A stretch of 64,000 nucleotides of DNA from Caldimonas brevitalea (GTDB taxonomy: Bacteria > Pseudomonadota > Gammaproteobacteria > Burkholderiales > Burkholderiaceae_C), in NCBI RefSeq assembly GCF_001017435.1, contig NZ_CP011371.1, positions 3,348,001-3,412,000 on the forward strand, read 5' to 3'. This document shows, in pieces, positions 10,247-51,756 of this stretch (positions are counted from its first letter, which is position 1; each line of letters begins with the position of its first letter). The notes beneath the pieces were generated by a model, which did no database searches, was not told the DNA's origin, and saw nothing but the letters and a program-made list of their open reading frames with translations. Position numbers and translations under genes: made by a program.

Positions 10247-10756
10247 TCAGCGCCGGCCGAGGAAGTCGCCCTTGCCGAGGCTCACGCCGTTGTGGCGGAG
10301 GATGGCGTAGGCCGCGGTCAGATGGAAATAGAAGTTGGGCATGGCATGGTGCTTCAAGTAGGCCTCGCCCTCGAAGCTGAGCGGGTCGGCGCCGCGCACC
10401 GGCACGCTGATGGGCTTGGCTTCGCTGCCGTCCAGCTGTGCCGGGGGCACCGACTCGATGTATTCGATGGTCTTGCGGATGCGCTGCTGCAGCTCCGCGA
10501 CGGTGGCCTCCTGGTCCGGGAACGACGGCGCGTCCGCACCGGACAAGCGGGCCACCGCGAACTTCGCGGCATCACAGGCGATCTGCACCTGGCGGGTCAA
10601 CGCGAACATGTCGGGTGCGAGGCGCGCCGCCAGCAGCACGGCCACGTCGAACCCGCGTGAGGCGGCGTGCTGCTCGGCCTTGCCCAGCATCACGTCGAGG
10701 TTGTGCAGCATCTTCGCGAACACCGGCACGCTGGCCGAATACATCGAGATCGTCAT
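10247..10756 (-). CDS. DUF1993 family protein
   Basis: 169 residues from ATG at 10756, which has AGGAG six bases before it. The translation begins MTISMYSASVPVFAKMLHNL and includes FDVAVLLAARLAPDMFALTRQVQIACD and a C-terminal MPNFYFHLTAAYAILRHNGV, the conserved parts of DUF1993. The family is a four-helix-bundle type related to DinB-like proteins and has no established activity. The frame stays open far upstream through the tandem repeat array, but that extension is an artefact. The gene is divergent from the 2-hydroxyacid dehydrogenase, with 138 bases between the starts that contain a perfect 12-bp palindrome. Confidence 0.88.
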   Translation of the reverse strand: MTISMYSASVPVFAKMLHNLDVMLGKAEQHAASRGFDVAVLLAARLAPDMFALTRQVQIACDAAKFAVARLSGADAPSFPDQEATVAELQQRIRKTIEYIESVPPAQLDGSEAKPISVPVRGADPLSFEGEAYLKHHAMPNFYFHLTAAYAILRHNGVSLGKGDFLGRR

Positions 10757-10813
10757 GGAGTCTCCTGTTGTGGTCATGCGGGCAAGGCTTGCCGTGCGCC
10801 CCGGATCGTAACG

Positions 10814-10825
10814 TTCTCGCGAGAA
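10814..10825. promoter_or_regulatory. 12-bp perfect palindrome in a divergent intergenic region
   Basis: TTCTCGCGAGAA is its own reverse complement and lies about 60-80 bases from both start codons of the divergent DUF1993 and dehydrogenase genes. Position and symmetry suggest an operator for a dimeric regulator. No regulator gene lies next to it, so the binder is unknown. Confidence 0.4.
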
Positions 10826-10894
10826 AGATGCAGAATGTGGCCCACGTCGGCGGGCGGCCCACTCCGGGAGCTGACGCCAGATGCAAGAAGTGCC

Positions 10895-11905
10895 ATGAAC
10901 ATCATCATCCTGGACGACTATCAGGACGCGGTGCGCAAGCTGAAGTGCGCCGCGCAGCTCGAGGCGTACAACGCCAAAGTCTTCACCAACACCGTCAAGG
11001 GGATCGGCCAGCTGTCGGTGCGCTTGCGCGACGCCGACGTGCTGGTGCTGATCCGCGAACGCACCCATTTCCCGCGGCAGCTGCTCGAAAAGCTGCCCAA
11101 GCTCAAGCTGATCGCCCAGACCGGGCGCGTCGGCCCCCACATCGACGTCGACACCTGCACCCGCATGGGCATCGCCGTGGCTGACGGTGTCGGCTCGCCG
11201 GTGGCGCCGGCCGAGTTGACCTGGGCCCTGATCATGGCGGCCATGCGTCGCCTGCCCCAGTACATCGGCAACCTCAAGCACGGCGCATGGCAGCAGTCGG
11301 GCCTCAAGTCGGCCTCGATGCCACCCAACTTCGGGCTCGGCATGGTGTTGCGGGGCAAGACGCTGGGCATCTGGGGCTACGGCAAGATCGGCCAGCTGGT
11401 GGCCGGCTATGGCCGCGCCTTCGGCATGAAAGTGCTGGTGTGGGGCAGCGAAGCCTCGCGTGCCAAGGCCCAGGCCGACGGCTACGACGCCGCCGTCACG
11501 CGTGAAGACCTGTTCGAGGCCAGCGACGTGCTGTCGCTGCATTTGCGCCTGGTCGACAGCACCCGCGCCCTGGTGCGGCTCGACGACCTGCTGCGCATGA
11601 AACCCAACGCCCTGTTCGTCAACACCTCGCGGGCCGAGCTGGTCGAAGAGAACGCCTTGGTCAGTGCACTCAACCGCGGCCGGCCGGGCATGGCGGCGGT
11701 CGACGTGTTCGAGAGCGAACCGATCTTGCAGGGGCACCCGCTGCTGCGCCTCGAAAACGCCGTCTGCACGCCACACATCGGCTATGTCGAGCAAGACAGC
11801 TACGAGCTTTACTTCAGCGCCGCCTTCGAGAACGTCATCAACTTCATCAACGGCTCGCCCACCAACATCGTCAACCCGGACGCGCTGAAGGTGATCCGGG
11901 GATGA
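10895..11905 (+). CDS. D-2-hydroxyacid dehydrogenase family protein
   Basis: 336 residues from ATG at 10895. NAD-dependent dehydrogenases of this family oxidise or reduce 2-hydroxyacids or phosphoglycerate. The nucleotide-binding loop is GIWGYGKIGQLVAGYGRAFG. The catalytic triad motifs are visible as VNTSRAELV (Arg), DVFESEPI (Glu) and CTPHIGYVE (His). The N-terminal segment IAQTGRVGPHIDVDTCTRMGIAVADG is typical of the substrate domain. The last codons overlap the first ATG of the repeat open frame as ATGA at 11902-11905, so translation may continue into the repeat leader and the MFS gene. The exact substrate is not predictable; the MFS gene downstream could transport a related acid. Confidence 0.9.
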   Translation: MNIIILDDYQDAVRKLKCAAQLEAYNAKVFTNTVKGIGQLSVRLRDADVLVLIRERTHFPRQLLEKLPKLKLIAQTGRVGPHIDVDTCTRMGIAVADGVGSPVAPAELTWALIMAAMRRLPQYIGNLKHGAWQQSGLKSASMPPNFGLGMVLRGKTLGIWGYGKIGQLVAGYGRAFGMKVLVWGSEASRAKAQADGYDAAVTREDLFEASDVLSLHLRLVDSTRALVRLDDLLRMKPNALFVNTSRAELVEENALVSALNRGRPGMAAVDVFESEPILQGHPLLRLENAVCTPHIGYVEQDSYELYFSAAFENVINFINGSPTNIVNPDALKVIRG

Positions 11906-12216
11906 GCGCCACCCGGCCGCCCGAAGGGGCTCGCACCGTAGTGCGTAGCACGGAGGTTTACCGAATGAGCGCCGCTCGGCCGCCCGAAGGCGCTCGCACC
12001 GCAGTGCGTAGCACGGAGGTTTACCGAATGAGCGCCGCTCGGCCGCCCGAAGGCGCTCGCACCGCAGTGCGTAGCACGGAGGTTTACCGAATGAGCGCCG
12101 CTCGGCCGCCCGGAGGCGCTCGCACCGCAGTGCGTAGCACGGAGGTTTACCGAATGAGCGCCGCTCGGCCGCCCGAAGGCGCTCGCACCGCAGTGCGTAG
12201 CACGGAGGTTTACCGA
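11902..12216 (+). repeat. five tandem copies of a 63-bp repeat, each carrying a Shine-Dalgarno and ATG
   Basis: Copies start at 11902, 11965, 12028, 12091 and 12154; a sixth begins at 12217 but diverges after ATGACCGCC. The period is exactly 63 bp (21 codons), so the frame is kept whatever the copy number. Within each unit GAGCGCC near the start is complementary to GGCGCTC about 15 bases later, giving a stem-loop, followed by a small CGCAC-CGCA-GTGCG hairpin and then GCACGGAGGTTTACCGAATG, i.e. a strong GGAGG seven to eight bases before the ATG of the next unit. Copies 2, 3 and 5 look identical; copy 4 has one change and copy 1 a few. A diverged single copy occurs at 19117-19168 in the opposite orientation. 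Confidence 0.95.
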
Positions 12217-12258
12217 ATGACCGCCGTCGTGCACGCGCCGAAGACCTCCCTCGCATGA
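11902..12258 (+). CDS. repeat-encoded leader open frame, 118 codons (possible translated leader)
   Basis: The frame runs ATG 11902 to TGA 12258 and encodes five copies of a 21-residue repeat whose core is RPPEGARTAVRSTEVYR, then a 13-residue tail. Its first ATG overlaps the stop of the dehydrogenase (ATGA) and its stop overlaps the ATG of the MFS gene (ATGA at 12255-12258). Six in-frame ATGs, five of them preceded by GGAGG, all terminate at the same stop. The peptide is basic, repetitive and not like any protein family I know. I read it as a translated leader coupling the two flanking genes rather than as a functional protein; it may equally be a non-coding repeat that happens to be open. Confidence 0.45.
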   Translation: MSATRPPEGARTVVRSTEVYRMSAARPPEGARTAVRSTEVYRMSAARPPEGARTAVRSTEVYRMSAARPPGGARTAVRSTEVYRMSAARPPEGARTAVRSTEVYRMTAVVHAPKTSLA

Positions 12259-13430
12259 CCACCGCAACCGACTACGGCAGCGCGCTGCCGGCGACGCGGC
12301 GCGCACTGCTGTTCGGCAATTTCGTCATCGGCTGCGGCGTGATGGTCGTGAGCGGGACCTTGAACGACCTCGCCACTTCGTTGCGCGTGTCCGTCGCGCT
12401 GGCCGGACAGTTGATCACCATCGCCGCGACCCTGATGTGTTTCGGTGCGCCGCTGTTGGCGATGGTGGTGGCCGGCTGGGACCGCCGTCGCCTGCTGACG
12501 CTGGCGCTGCTGTGGTATGGCGTCGGCCATGCCTTGTGCGCCGTGATGCCCGACTACGCCTGGCTGTGGCCCGTGCGCGCCCTGACGGTGTTGGCGGCGG
12601 CTGTTTTCACGCCGCAGGCCGCCGCCGCGATCGGCCACATGGCCACCCCCGAGCAGCGTGGGCGCAGCATCACCTTCGTGTTCCTGGGCTGGTCGGTCGC
12701 GTCGGTGGCCGGCATGCCGATCTCGGCCTGGATCGGCGAGATGTTCGGCTGGCGCTGGGCGATGGGGCTGGTGGCCGTGCTGGCACTGGCCGCCGCAATG
12801 GGCGTGCACCGCAGCCTGCCGACCGGGGTGCGGCCTCCCGGCATGAGCTTGCGCGCCTGGCGCGGCGTGTTCCGCAACCCGGTGTTGATGGCCATCGTCG
12901 CCGTCACGGCGCTGCAAGGCGCCGGGCAGTTCACCGTGTTCGCCTACTACGCGCCCTATTTGCGCCAGATCGTCGGCGCGTCGCCGAACGAGATCAGCCT
13001 GCTGTTCGCCTGGTTCGGCGCCTGGGGCCTGCTGGGCAACACCATCTTGTCGCGGGTGGTCGACCGGGTCGGCGCCGCGAGGGCGGTGGCCACCGTGCTG
13101 GTCTTGATCTGCTTCAGCCTGCTGCTGTGGCCGCTGGCGACCACGCCGCCCTGGATCGCGGCCCTGATCGTCCCCTGGGCGCTCGGCTGTTTTTCCTGCA
13201 ATTCCGCACAGCAGGCGCGGCTCGGCCACGCAGCGCCGCTGCTGACGCCGGCCCTGATGGCGCTCAACACGTCCGCCATCTACCTGGGGCAGGCGGTCGG
13301 CGCCGGCGGCGGCGGTTGGTTGATCGAGCACATGGGCTGGGGGGTGTTGAGCTGGGTCGGCCTGGCCTGGGTCGCCGTGGCCCTGGCGCTCAGCCAGTGG
13401 GCCGCGCGACGCCCGGCCCTGCCCGAATGA
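12255..13430 (+). CDS. MFS transporter, DHA1/AraJ-like
   Basis: 391 residues with about twelve hydrophobic helices, the size of DHA1-type major facilitator proteins. Family features include the cytoplasmic loop after helix 2 (AGWDRRRLLTLALLW), HMATPEQRGRSITFVFLGWSVASVAGMPISAWIGE in helices 4-5, and FGWRWAMGLVAVLALAAA in helix 6. Such proteins are proton-driven exporters of drugs, sugars or arabinose-like compounds; the substrate is unknown. The start codon overlaps the stop of the repeat leader by ATGA and has only a weak Shine-Dalgarno of its own, so its translation is probably coupled to the leader. The chromate transporter pair follows after 17 bases on the same strand. Confidence 0.9.
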   Translation: MTTATDYGSALPATRRALLFGNFVIGCGVMVVSGTLNDLATSLRVSVALAGQLITIAATLMCFGAPLLAMVVAGWDRRRLLTLALLWYGVGHALCAVMPDYAWLWPVRALTVLAAAVFTPQAAAAIGHMATPEQRGRSITFVFLGWSVASVAGMPISAWIGEMFGWRWAMGLVAVLALAAAMGVHRSLPTGVRPPGMSLRAWRGVFRNPVLMAIVAVTALQGAGQFTVFAYYAPYLRQIVGASPNEISLLFAWFGAWGLLGNTILSRVVDRVGAARAVATVLVLICFSLLLWPLATTPPWIAALIVPWALGCFSCNSAQQARLGHAAPLLTPALMALNTSAIYLGQAVGAGGGGWLIEHMGWGVLSWVGLAWVAVALALSQWAARRPALPE

Positions 13431-32286: not shown

Positions 32287-35200
32287 ATGGCCACCGCCCC
32301 CTCCACACTCACCGGCAAGGTTTCCGCTGTCGTCGGGAAGGCGTATCTGAAATTGGCCGACGGCTCGATGCGCGAACTGAAGGTGGGCGACGTGATCCGC
32401 GAAGGTGACGTCGTGGTGGTGGCCGACAACGGTCGGGTCGAAATCACCGACGAGTCCGGCGCGGTGTACGTGCCACGCAGCGGCGAACCGCTGAGTCTGG
32501 CGGATCTCGACACCAGCGCTCCGTCCGGGCGCCGCGCGGCGGCAAATGCGGCGGTGGGTGACGACGACCTCGACCGGGCGATCGCGGCGGTGGACGCCGG
32601 GACCGATCCCAATGAAGCCCCTGCCGCTGGCCTGACCGGTGACGCGGGCGGCGGTGACGGCTTCGGCCCCGGGTTGCGCGTGGACCGTGTGAGTGAGGCG
32701 GTAACGCCCGCTGGGTTGGAGACCGGGACGGTGAACGCCGGCGCCGCGCCGCCGGTGCAGCAGACGACCGGCAGTGCGTTGGCGGCAGAGACCTCGTCCG
32801 CCCCGGCCCCGGCCCCGGCCCCGGCCCCGGCCCCGACCCCGACCCCCGCGCCCGCCCCGGCCCCGGCGGTCGTGTCGACTGGCGCCGGTGCGGTGAGCGA
32901 GGACGTCGCACTGTCCACCGGCGGCACCTTGGCCGCCTCCGACGCCGACAACCCCGGGCTCGCCTTCGTGCCGCAGACGGTCACCACCGCCTTTGGTCTG
33001 TTCTCGATCGACGCCGCAGGGGCTTGGACCTATCGGCTCGACAACACCACAGCGCAGAGCCTGGCCGACGGCGAAGTGCGCAGCGAAGCGGTCACGGTGG
33101 TGCTGACCGACGGCACCACCACACAGGTGCGCATCGACATCACCGGCCAGGACGACGCGGCCGTGGTGGGCGCTTCGCGCGCCGAGACGTCTGAAGACGG
33201 AACGTCGTCGCTTTCCGGCAGCCTGAGCGCGGCCGACATCGACAACCCGGGCCTGGCCTTCGTGCCGCAGGTGGCCGCCGGCGGCCTTGGCAGCTTCGCG
33301 GTGGACGCGGCGGGCAACTGGACTTACACGCTCGACCGCGGCCCCGCACAGGGTTTGGCTGCCGGCGCGGTACGGACCGAGAGTTTCGTCGTCGCGCTGA
33401 ACGATGGCTCGTCGACCACCGTGACCGTGTTGGTCTCCGGGGTGAACGACGCGCCGGCCGTGGTCAGCGCGCTGAACGGCGTGAGCAGCGTCGACGGCGC
33501 GGCCGTCTCGGTGAGCACCGCCGCCGCGTTCGCAGACGCCGATGCTGGCGACACCCTGCGCTTCTCGGCGACCGGCCTCCCCCCCGGCCTCAGCATCGAT
33601 CCCGCCACCGGCGTCATCTCCGGTGCCCTGCAGGCGGATGCCAGTGTGGCCGGGCCTTATCTGGTCAATGTCACGGCGACCGACGCGAGCGGTGCCACAG
33701 TCTCCCAAGGGTTCACGCTGGCAGTGCGCAACGCAGCGCCGGTGGGCACCGACCTGGCGGTTTCGGCTGCGGAAGACGGCACGCTGTCGGGCAGCGTGAC
33801 GGCGAACGACGCGGACGGCGACAGCTTGTTTTTCTCGAAGGCTTCGGACCCGGCGCATGGCACGGTGGTTGTGAACGCCAACGGCAGCTACACCTACACG
33901 CCCAACGCCGACTACAACGGCCCGGATTTGTTCACGGTCACCGTGACGGACGGCCAGGGTGGTGCCGACACGATGACGGTCAACGTCACGGTCACGGCTG
34001 GCAACGATGCGCCGGTGATCGTGGGCGCCCTGGCGAACCAGACTGGCACCGACGCCACCGCGGTCAGTATCCCGACCGCTGCCGGCTTCGCCGACATCGA
34101 CGCTGGCGACACGCTGACTTTCTCTGCCACCGGCTTGCCCGCTGGCTTGACCATCGACCCGGCCACGGGCGTCATCTCCGGCACCTTGGCGTCGAACGCC
34201 AGTGTCTCGGGCCCGTACTCTGTCAATGTCACGGCCACCGACACGGCGGGCGCCGCCGTCTCGCAGAGCTTCTCACTGACAGTCGGCAACCCCGCACCGG
34301 TCGCTGCTGATCAAACGCTCTCGACCACCGAAGACACCGCACGCACCGGCACCGTCACGGCAACTGATGCCGATGGCGACGCGCTCACGTTCACGAAGGC
34401 AACCGATCCGGCTCACGGCACAGTCGTCGTGAACGCCAACGGCAGCTACACCTACACGCCCAACGCCGACTACAACGGCCCCGATTCGTTCACCGTCACG
34501 GTGAACGACGGCCAAGACGGTGCCGACACGATGACGGTCAACGTCACGGTCACGGGTGGCAACGATGCCCCGGTGATCATCGGCGCTCTGTCCAACCAGG
34601 TTGGCACCGACGCCACCGCGGTGAGCATCCCCACCGCTGCCGGCTTCGCGGACATCGACGCTGGCGACACGCTGACTTTCTCGGCCACCGGCCTGCCCGC
34701 TGGCTTGACCATTGACCCGACCACCGGTGTTATCTCCGGCACCCTGGCCTCGAACGCCAGCGTCTCTGGCCCCTACACCGTCAACGTCACGGCCACCGAC
34801 GCGGCTGGCGCCGCCGTCTCGCAGAGTTTCTCGCTCACCGCCGGCAACCCGGCTCCGGTCGGTGCGGATCAAACGGTGTCGACCACCGAAGACACCGCCC
34901 GCACCGGCACCGTCACGGCCACCGATGCCGACGGCGATAGCTTGTCCTTCTCGAAGGCCTCGGACCCGGCTCACGGCACAGTCGTCGTGAACGCCAACGG
35001 CAGCTACACCTACACGCCCAACGCCGACTACAACGGCCCCGATTCGTTCACTGTTTCGGTGACCGACGACCAAGGCGGTGCCGACACGATGACGGTCAAC
35101 GTCACGGTCACGGCTGGCAACGACGCCCCTGTCATCGTGGGCGCGCTGGCCAACCAAATCGGTACCGACGCAACGGCAGTCAGCATCCCGACCGCTACCG

Positions 35201-50200: not shown

Positions 50201-51756
50201 CCTACACGCCGACCGCCACCGGCTATTACAGCTTCGAGTTCTTCGTCTACAACACGAGTGGCCCGGGCAGCTACGACCTCAACGTCAGCATCGACGGTGC
50301 GGCCGCGGTCGACGTGTCCAGCGCCAACCTGCGGCTTTATGGCAGCGTCGGCCAGATCGACAACCTGGGCGGCCAGCACGGCGCCTTCGTGCCCAACAGC
50401 ACGACCGGCGAAGGTGGCTACTACCCGGTGAGCTACAACGTCGGCATGCAGGACAGCGTGGTGCGCCTCGCACCGGTCATCGCCACGCTGGGCGACACGG
50501 ACGGTTCCGAGGTGCTGACCGCGACCATCGCCGGCGTACCAGTGGGTGCCCTGCTGAGCGACGGTGTCAACACCTTCAGCGCGTCCGCGGGCAACACCAC
50601 GGCCAACGTGAGCGGCTGGAACCTGAGCCAGCTGCGCATCGCGCCGCCGGCGGGCTACAGCGGCAGCTTCACGCTGCAGGCCGAGGTCACCGCCACCGAG
50701 TCGTCCACCGGCGCCAGTTCCAGCGCGTCCACCACGGTGCCGGTCACGGTGCTGGCGCCAACCATCGACGTGGCCGCCACCTTCAATGCCGATGCTGTGT
50801 TCGGCAAGGACGGCGCGGACGTCTTCACCGTGTTGCAAACCGGCAGCGGGTTGAACGTGGCGATCAGGCACGGCAGCACCGGCAGCTACAACACGATGAG
50901 TGGCACCGAGACGACCGTGACGACGTCGCAGGTCTTCGACACCGAGGGCGGCAACGACCTGGTCGACGCGGGCCTCGGCAACGACGTGATCTATCTCGGC
51001 GACTCGACCGCGGCGACGCAGTCCGACACCGCTGCGCGCCAGTTCATGACGATCGCCGACACGTCCATGCTGGATGCCGACGGCACCTTGTCCAGCAGCG
51101 CGATGTTCTACCGCAACAACGCCAGCCTCCAGGGCCTGATCGACATCGGGAATGGCGCGGGCGGTGACGACCGCATCTACGGCGGCGCAGGCTCCGACCT
51201 GATCTACGGCGGTGCCGGCAACGACGTGCTGGACGGCGGCAGCCAGAACGACGGCCTGCGCGGCGGTGCCGGCGACGACACGCTGCAAGGCGGCGCCGGC
51301 AGCGACGTGCTGCGCGGCGACGCCGGCGCGGACGTCTTCCGCTGGGAATTCGCGGACCGCGGCACCGTCGGCAACGCAAGCGGCACAGCATCGGACATCA
51401 TCACCGACTTCGATGCTCGCCCCGTCAACGCCGGCGGCGACATCCTCGACCTGCGCGACCTGCTGAGCGGTGAAGCCAGGGGCAGCGCCAGCACGGGCAC
51501 GCCGAACGGCACCGTGGGCGATCTGGCAGGCCACCTCGATTTCAGCGTGAGCGGCAGTGGCAGCAGCTTGCAGACCCAAATCCTGATCAGCTCGACCGGC
51601 CAGTTCGGCAGCGGCACCACGTCGTCGAACGTGGCCGACCAACGTATCGTGCTGCAGAACGTCGACCTGCGCGCCGAGCTGGGCCTGACCAGCAACGCCA
51701 CCGACACGCAGATCATCCAGGAGCTGTTGAACCGCGGCAAGCTGATCACCGATTGA
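32287..51756 (+). CDS. giant LapA/BapA-like RTX adhesin, 6,489 residues
   Basis: One uninterrupted frame with AAGGA before the ATG. Residues 1-120 are a retention module ([32 protein letters not shown]) ending in a di-alanine site PAAG at 112-115, the expected LapG cut. A Pro-Ala linker (about 170-197) and two VCBS-like domains (about 198-386) follow. Residues 387-5594 are exactly 28 copies of a 186-residue unit, each a putative-Ig half ([19 protein letters not shown]) plus a cadherin/VCBS half ([34 protein letters not shown]). The C-terminal 895 residues hold more cadherin-like domains, a PA14-like domain (about 5853-6030, [20 protein letters not shown]), RTX glycine/aspartate nonapeptides (about 6218-6240 and 6282-6358) and a T1SS signal region. 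It should be secreted by the preceding ABC/adaptor pair and anchor cells to surfaces or each other. Confidence 0.96.
33445..49068 (+). repeat. 28 tandem copies of a 558-bp coding repeat
   Basis: Taking the Asn codon of the NDAP motif as boundary, copies begin at 33445, 34003, 34561, 35119 and so on to 48511, with the next domain at 49069; 15,624 bases is exactly 28 x 558. I checked the phase at several points (36235, 40141) and found no drift. Units are about 90-98% identical by eye. Copy 12 (39583-40140) and copy 28 (48511-49068) have strongly diverged second halves that resemble each other ([27 protein letters not shown]). A block around 42,110-42,590 recurs nearly unchanged eight units later. 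Confidence 0.95.

Follow-up and report, generated by a model that had tools for sequence, protein, structure and literature searches.

A tandem array that forms an open frame of its own, and whose ends overlap the genes on either side, raises the question of whether it is a device of a single operon or one site of something more widespread. Such an array lies in the window, the 64,000-nucleotide stretch analysed here, which covers positions 3348001-3412000 of the single 6,476,147-base contig of the Caldimonas brevitalea genome (G000). A previous interpretation made from the letters alone (the sequence-only reading) suggested that the array could act as a translation booster for the transporter gene that follows it.

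The array and its neighbouring genes

The array has five 63-bp units (11902-12216), located between a D-2-hydroxyacid dehydrogenase gene (10895-11905; 336 aa from the ATG at 10895, with a Pfam 2-Hacid_dh_C match of 2.2e-48 on the containing ORF) and the gene for an MFS transporter (12255-13430; 391 aa, Pfam MFS_1, 4e-38), all on the plus strand. TRF analysis of the window reports a period of 63, with 5.4 copies and 96% match, at 11902-12243, and the array forms an ORF of 118 codons that is open from its first ATG (11902-12258). The ATGA at 11902-11905 joins the ATG of unit 1 (11902-11904) and the TGA of the dehydrogenase gene (11903-11905), as found in the sequence and in chain analysis of this array (L023), whereas at the other end the TGA of the array ORF (12256-12258) overlaps the MFS ATG (12255-12257), a start that the chain analysis also reaches. 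Sequence, ORF and TRF data thus agree with the earlier description of five 63-bp units that share a frame and have an ATGA overlap at either end, and this is indeed a layout of translational coupling, as had been proposed.

From sequence and TRF, the units span 11902-11964, 11965-12027, 12028-12090, 12091-12153 and 12154-12216, and each contains a GGAGGT (11952-11957, 12015-12020, 12078-12083, 12141-12146 and 12204-12209, respectively); GGAGG lies 8 nt from the next ATG, which confirms the proper spacing previously noted for every unit. Unit 1 is the most diverged of the five, with an identity to unit 2 of 0.93 over 55 nt in ungapped comparison, a kind of value that is unreliable if hits are out of register. 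In unit 2, the predicted fold places the arms of hairpin I, whose stem covaries across the family, at 11967-11973 and 11989-11995. The extent formerly assigned to the repeats holds up to 12216; the remainder (12217-12254) is a 38-nt tail that starts with ATGA and contains no full unit, with a weak TRF extension to 12243, and it may be host flank or a degenerate partial unit.

According to the sequence-only reading, more units would bring more initiation on the MFS gene, and their gain or loss would switch its expression. The near-identical in-frame units, each with a Shine-Dalgarno (SD) and an ATG, favour this proposal, as does the absence of GGAGG, on inspection of the sequence, from the 38 nt preceding the MFS ATG. 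A search of 11700-12500 for promoters and terminators found none in the array, and 26 of the 29 relatives fetched also have the dehydrogenase gene before that of the MFS transporter. Just 5' of the MFS start, an ACCTCC (12244-12249) is complementary to the GGAGGT of unit 5, with which it could pair. On the minus strand, a 671-codon ORF (10247-12262) runs antisense to the array and the dehydrogenase gene, and is probably a high-GC artefact. Elsewhere in the window, TRF also reports 11 copies of the hexamer GCCCCG (32800-32867), as well as 27-bp and 54-bp tandem repeats (51167-51328) whose reading looks like a glycine/aspartate-rich nonapeptide, presumably of the RTX type.

The repeat is dispersed in C. 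brevitalea and its relatives

The 19-base core of the unit, GCACNGCAGTGCGNAGCAC, occurs with up to 2 mismatches in 82 places of G000, against 4 for the reversed control, and the family of the array is therefore not due to chance. We built a covariance model from an alignment (A2) of 44 of 59 distinct units; the 15 omitted were near-duplicates within an array and the diverged L002, L004, L038, L039 and L043, and the set of distinct units had itself been drawn up without 18 loci, taken to be half units or chance hits, and without 2 single hits, all flagged manually. The model retrieved 119 matches in G000 at E≤1 and 112 at E≤0.01. At the latter threshold, there were 56 and 6 matches in two genomes of the same genus (G002 and G004, respectively); six other members of the genus had 1-19 matches each (19 in G008), none better than E 4e-5, which may be due to chance. 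In a sample of 200 genomes from the taxonomic family of the host, 77 contained matches (E≤1e-6), corresponding to 63 of 141 genera, and both figures are floors because scoring was limited to 27 candidates in each genome. Scanning named genomes for an exact pattern gave at least 120 matching stretches, and among the matches listed were Variovorax, Acidovorax, Xenophilus, Hydrogenophaga, Pelomonas, Polaromonas, Aquabacterium sp. A7-Y and others; since the pattern demanded RATGA, these matches are uninformative on position.

Using nhmmer on 115 fetched stretches (75 from G000, 28 from G002, 2 from G004 and 10 from G035), we obtained 183 hits, 177 after removal of overlaps, which were grouped into 109 arrays: 69, 28, 2 and 10, respectively. 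Unfetched were 10 weak G000 matches (E 1e-3 to 0.76) out of the 119 and the contig-end matches of G002 on C37 and C71, and the 10 stretches of G035 were fetched for 19 places. The array is therefore not special to the MFS transporter, for which a device had been suggested, because the same family stands at 69 sites of G000 in varied operons, including those of the ftsW-murG and prfA-prmC types. Moreover, 48 of these 69 detected sites have a single unit and 21 have at least two, which argues against the idea of a booster that works by unit number.

Some loci depart from the common form. L005, L008, L012, L031, L034 and L036 are half units, consisting of the 3' part alone (core and SD-like end) and lacking stem I; a start codon follows all of them except L008, and that of L005 opens just 10 codons. 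The G035 loci (L106-L115) form a subfamily with GAAGGTACTCCAGTGA-like ends and, in 9 of its 10 arrays, the downstream start is GTG. At the ends of L014 and L017, the last units are apparently internally deleted, and the ORF still ends on the TAATG or ATGA of the gene. Among the open-licence papers listed in our literature searches, none treats this repeat by its title or abstract opening, and the term 'MIRU-like' is absent from the 20 papers listed, out of 33, in one of these searches; likewise, the accessible parts of PMC3098052 and PMC2864759 hold nothing on this repeat.

Units occupy stop-start junctions

Where the 5' end of an array is intact, the TGA of the first unit closes an upstream ORF of at least 90 aa in 40 of 55 cases in G000, 16 of 25 in G002 and 7 of 9 in G035, as compared with a background of about 0.002 per position in the same stretches. 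At the 3' end, a start codon is found 5-7 nt after the last GGAGGT in 50/69 (G000), 24/28 (G002) and 9/10 (G035), with chance values of 0.12, 0.11 and 0.16, respectively. The sequence-only reading had suggested looking for such an excess of units before start codons, and it is seen in all three genomes. These starts open at least 90 codons in 40, 14 and 8 arrays of the three genomes. Two figures from G000 were counted against the reading in which the unit relays ribosomes to the next gene, namely that only 40 of its 50 arrays with a start at 5-7 nt open at least 90 codons and that 15 of 69 have no start codon 2-15 nt past the last unit.

A Pfam scan of 20 downstream and 10 upstream proteins, from which we inferred gene names, identified neighbours with FTSW_RODA_SPOVE/Glyco_transf_28 (ftsW-murG type), PCRF/RF-1 plus PrmC_N (prfA-prmC type), DBI_PRT plus CobS, and NIF3 plus PdxA, together with ABC transporter subunits and two GGDEF proteins. 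These scanned neighbours show no evident common pathway.

Many arrays are flanked on both sides by NTGA, which stands only once at the empty site. The flanking NTGA could be a 4-bp target-site duplication or, alternatively, start/stop codons maintained by selection.

The same junctions in related bacteria

We looked up the gene pairs of 4 of the 69 G000 junctions in related genomes, counting the relatives whose pair was found. An NTGA overlap was present at ftsW-murG in 20 of 29 relatives, at prfA-prmC in 11 of 27 (plus one TGATG), at NIF3-pdxA in 10 of 19 and at dehydrogenase-MFS in 9 of 26 (plus three TGATG). Taken over all four junctions and all relatives, 50 of 101 gene pairs have such an overlap, a proportion that we also counted against the relay of ribosomes. 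Within the genus, plain NTGA overlaps amount to 14 of 22 (5/8 at ftsW-murG, 5/8 at prfA-prmC and 4/6 at NIF3-pdxA). The remaining relatives have spacers, other inserts or, in the case of prfA-prmC in G002, a unit of this family. The sharpest case is ftsW-murG, where G001, G004, G005 and G008 read ...GC-ATGA and G000 reads ...GC-ATGAGC-unit-unit-ATGA. As judged from these sequence comparisons, the state of the junctions in relatives, known for 4 of 69, supports probable insertion at NTGA overlaps, more weakly outside the genus.

Relatives also carry other inserts at the ftsW-murG ATGA (L147, L149, L154, L155, L160, L163, L171 and L173). Some are in tandem, such as L149, with two copies of 86-87 bp, and L160 and L171 are repeated too; those in L149, L154, L155 and L163 end in a copy of the sequence that precedes the first ATGA, SD included. 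In L162 (G012, at the murG start), a sequence similar to the 5' half of the unit is followed by unrelated sequence, apparently in frame. We considered whether CTCATGCNNGGAGGNNNNNNATGA, common to some of these inserts, could define a second dispersed family, and found it in 26 places of 20 out of 60 genomes. However, 17 of these places, from 14 genomes, are no more than about 450 nt away from the murG place, so CTCATGCNNGGAGGNNNNNNATGA corresponds for the most part to the 3' end of ftsW, and a second copy, if present, arose by duplication along with the insert. Seven of the other nine places are in G022, G028, G031 and G033, one is in G055 and one, in G040, is elsewhere; in this distance count the murG place was located for G040, and not for the other five genomes. 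Likewise, the 87-nt unit of G003 (L149), tried as a dispersed repeat, gave 4 matches in G003 (two in the array, one in the flank and one weak), 2 weak matches in G001 and none in 5 other genomes searched. From their distributions, both sequences look like local duplications and not like a second family.

Unit anatomy and RNA structure

From 5' to 3', the unit is composed of NTGAGC, stem I, an inner CGG/CCG hairpin, GCACCGCAGTGCGNAGCAC, GGAGGT, about 6 nt and the start codon. Stem I, GAGCNCC/GGNGCTC, has dyad symmetry with compensatory changes: its first two-sided pair is C-G in 22 units, G-C in 14, A-U in 1 and unpaired in 7, and the second is C-G in 35, U-A in 3, U-G in 2, G-C in 1 and unpaired in 3. 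Two-sided changes in hairpin I add up to 19 cells versus 7.6 in shuffles that ignore relatedness, and none of 500 shuffles reaches 19, while the number of pairs with two-sided changes (2) is not above that of shuffles (279/500). A competing 3' structure, with ACC paired with GGU, fits about equally well (95.3% versus 94.8% of cells).

These features could suggest a regulatory RNA switch, in which the SD would be opened or closed, depending on upstream translation, by hairpin I together with two small stems that exclude each other (GCAC-GTGC, or GTGC-GCAC plus ACC-GGU). The compensatory changes in hairpin I point in this direction, as do the folds computed for individual stretches and the occurrence, in 2 of 44 units, of G-C in place of the A-U pair of ACC-GGU. 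Nevertheless, fold energies are unexceptional against shuffles both for five individual stretches (z between -0.04 and -1.18) and for the whole array (z -1.04), the window has no Rfam match at the gathering threshold, the 30 neighbouring genes examined do not evidently share a pathway, and the hairpin could equally serve DNA processing. We thus consider such a switch unlikely, and it could in any case coexist with an element that occupies gene junctions.

A dispersed hairpin without terminal inverted repeats, such as those expected of a MITE of a DDE transposon and not seen by eye on the A2 consensus, also brings to mind REP/RAYT or IS200/IS605-type elements, which are moved by a Y1 (tyrosine) transposase. 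However, PF01797 has no match at E≤1e-5 in G000, the richest in repeat matches of nine genomes of the genus, and its two matches come from G002 and from G006, a genome with a single weak repeat match. This makes a Y1 element very unlikely, although an enzyme might have acted in trans from a plasmid since lost.

Unit length, reading frames and turnover

Intervals between units in G000, from hit coordinates (n=40), are of 63 (21), 62 (11), 61 (3), 65 (2), 66 (2) and 60 bp (1), while in G002 they are of 62 bp in 19 out of 23. Since 16/40 and 20/23 intervals, respectively, are not multiples of three, the family does not conform to the earlier notion that unit length preserves the frame. In arrays with 62-bp units (e.g. 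L020 and L027), the mini-ORF stops after 21 codons on the ATGA of the next unit, whereas in 63-bp arrays the mini-ORFs fuse in frame; in L010, L013 and L051 the last unit is of 62 bp, and the fused ORF therefore stops on the ATGA of the gene. The array in the window could be read as a true gene for a 118-aa repeat protein, because it is open over 118 codons, but a period of 62 breaks the frame at other sites, where the peptide ends after 21 codons, and one-base stem variants among units shift the frame of the peptide, which renders this possibility extremely improbable.

The first interior start of the 21 multi-unit arrays of G000 is ATG in 11, GTG in 2, ATC in 6 and CTG in 2. The ATG described for each unit is present throughout the window array, but in the family it is replaced by ATC or CTG in 8 of 21 arrays, indicating that a start in each unit is not required. 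Together with the variety of host operons, the missing interior starts and the many arrays with 62-bp units argue against boosting as the general role of the repeat. We therefore see a copy-number-tunable booster of the MFS gene as quite unlikely; such an effect is possible in single operons, though not supported as a general function.

The frame path from the first NTGA could be followed in 49 of the 109 arrays, after omission of 18 whose 5' end is truncated, 31 that lack a complete pair of flanking ORFs and 11 with distant or weak starts. This path overlaps the gene start in 35 arrays, fuses in frame with the gene in 10 and has another outcome in 4, while paths begun in either of the two shifted frames deliver to the gene start in 17 and 9 arrays and fuse in 8 and 20. 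Excluding pure 62-bp cases, delivery occurs in 21/33 arrays, versus 14/33 and 6/33 in the shifted frames. These sequence-based counts lend modest support to a coupling frame; the excess is partly explained by an inherited length of 62 bp, so we do not claim selection on the peptide.

Orthologous junctions were identified by blastp of the flanking ORFs, with gene starts picked by ORF length and codon composition instead of by a gene finder. Arrays occur at four orthologous gene pairs between G000 (69 arrays) and G002 (28), and at one between G000 and G035 (10), which are floors because a few arrays have no usable flank. Unit numbers at the four junctions shared by G000 and G002 are 4 v 2, 1 v 3, 4 v 3 and 3 v 1 (in the last, the third unit is truncated). 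Each species is represented by one genome, so these are differences between species; they bear out the suggested variability of unit number, which counts in favour of a booster. Unit identity is higher within than between arrays, both in G000 (0.957 versus 0.872) and in G002 (0.980 versus 0.952). Local duplication explains this likeness as well as the differing unit numbers.

A junction element that would restore coupling

We consider it probable that the array in the window is one site of a dispersed, most likely mobile, element of about 62 bp that occupies NTGA stop-start overlaps within operons, resembles MIRUs, restores coupling and expands locally. The unit would start on the NTGA of the host, such that the upstream stop still overlaps a start codon, would fold into a hairpin in which the G of this ATG takes part, followed by its own GGAGGT, and would end at a new start codon that either is the start of the downstream gene or leads to it. 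A ribosome finishing the upstream gene could begin again on the unit and read about 21 codons if units are of 62 bp, or the fused repeat ORF if they are of 63 bp, before stopping in overlap with the next start. As the unit brings its own start, SD and stop overlap, its insertion can preserve both coupling and the ribosome-binding site in tight operons. Once in place, units would rise or fall in number as tandem copies are duplicated or deleted locally. We infer the mobility of the element, re-initiation on each unit and a near-neutral effect on expression.

A more speculative scenario, which we find rather doubtful, is that this junction element spreads without a transposase. As both ends of the unit carry the same SD-spacer-NTGA signal, slippage during replication or repair from a coupled junction into an array located elsewhere, and back, might copy whole units with exactly the correct placement, orientation and spacing. 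In that case, stop-start overlaps would offer a niche for recombination, filled independently by MIRUs in mycobacteria and by this family in Burkholderiales, and the hairpin would make the restart depend on upstream translation.

If units do occupy junctions in this way, those such as ftsW-murG and prfA-prmC offer dozens of natural cases, with 0 to 5 units, for the study of re-initiation and coupling. The family may also lie behind some of the N-terminal extensions and wrongly assigned starts annotated in such genomes.

Comparison with known repeats

Contingency VNTRs are tandem units of changeable number that are used in phase variation. The present repeat shares with them the changeable number of units, but its 62-bp unit ends on the next ATGA and does not switch the frame of a gene. 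REP elements are short, dispersed, hairpin-bearing repeats associated with RAYT transposases; this family is likewise short, dispersed and hairpin-bearing, although it stands on stop-start overlaps in the sense direction and G000 lacks a Y1 transposase (PF01797, E≤1e-5). BOX, RUP and SPRITE are also dispersed short repeats, and pneumococcal BOX elements can combine with the sequence beside them into ORFs, but in the available part of the source these ORFs are described as lacking a good SD (PMC3049150). In that same part, SPRITE is enriched where insertion is said to be better tolerated than between cotranscribed genes (PMC3049150).

The sequence-only reading knew of no named element with this design. 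MIRUs are found in tandem at many loci. As far as the accessible portions of the two sources go, they are defined as small ORFs whose ends overlap the contiguous ORFs, dispersed, intergenic, oriented as the flanking genes and lacking dyad symmetry (PMC4473831), and, according to Brown and Wade, their insertion seems to take place at start codons, with -4 coupling and a likely minimal impact on expression (PMC12548453), so that a named element of this kind had in fact been described from mycobacteria. The family studied here is also dispersed, intergenic and in sense to its neighbours, the unit coincides with the end of an upstream sense-strand ORF at 40 of 55 sites, and 35 of the 49 usable arrays (out of 109), as well as the array in the window, run from the upstream stop to an overlap with the gene start; the -4 nt (NTGA) coupling is common to both. 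On the other hand, this family has dyad symmetry with a covarying stem, a unit of about 62 bp and a conserved GGAGGT, the comparison with MIRUs being by description and not by sequence, and its matches listed are from Burkholderiales or from bins labelled more broadly, whereas MIRUs are mycobacterial. Owing to the dyad symmetry and the different phylum, we do not file the family as a MIRU. MIRU-type coupling repeats have been described from mycobacteria, and their layout, if shared by a family in many Burkholderiales, would point to stop-start overlaps as a niche in which small elements generally land.
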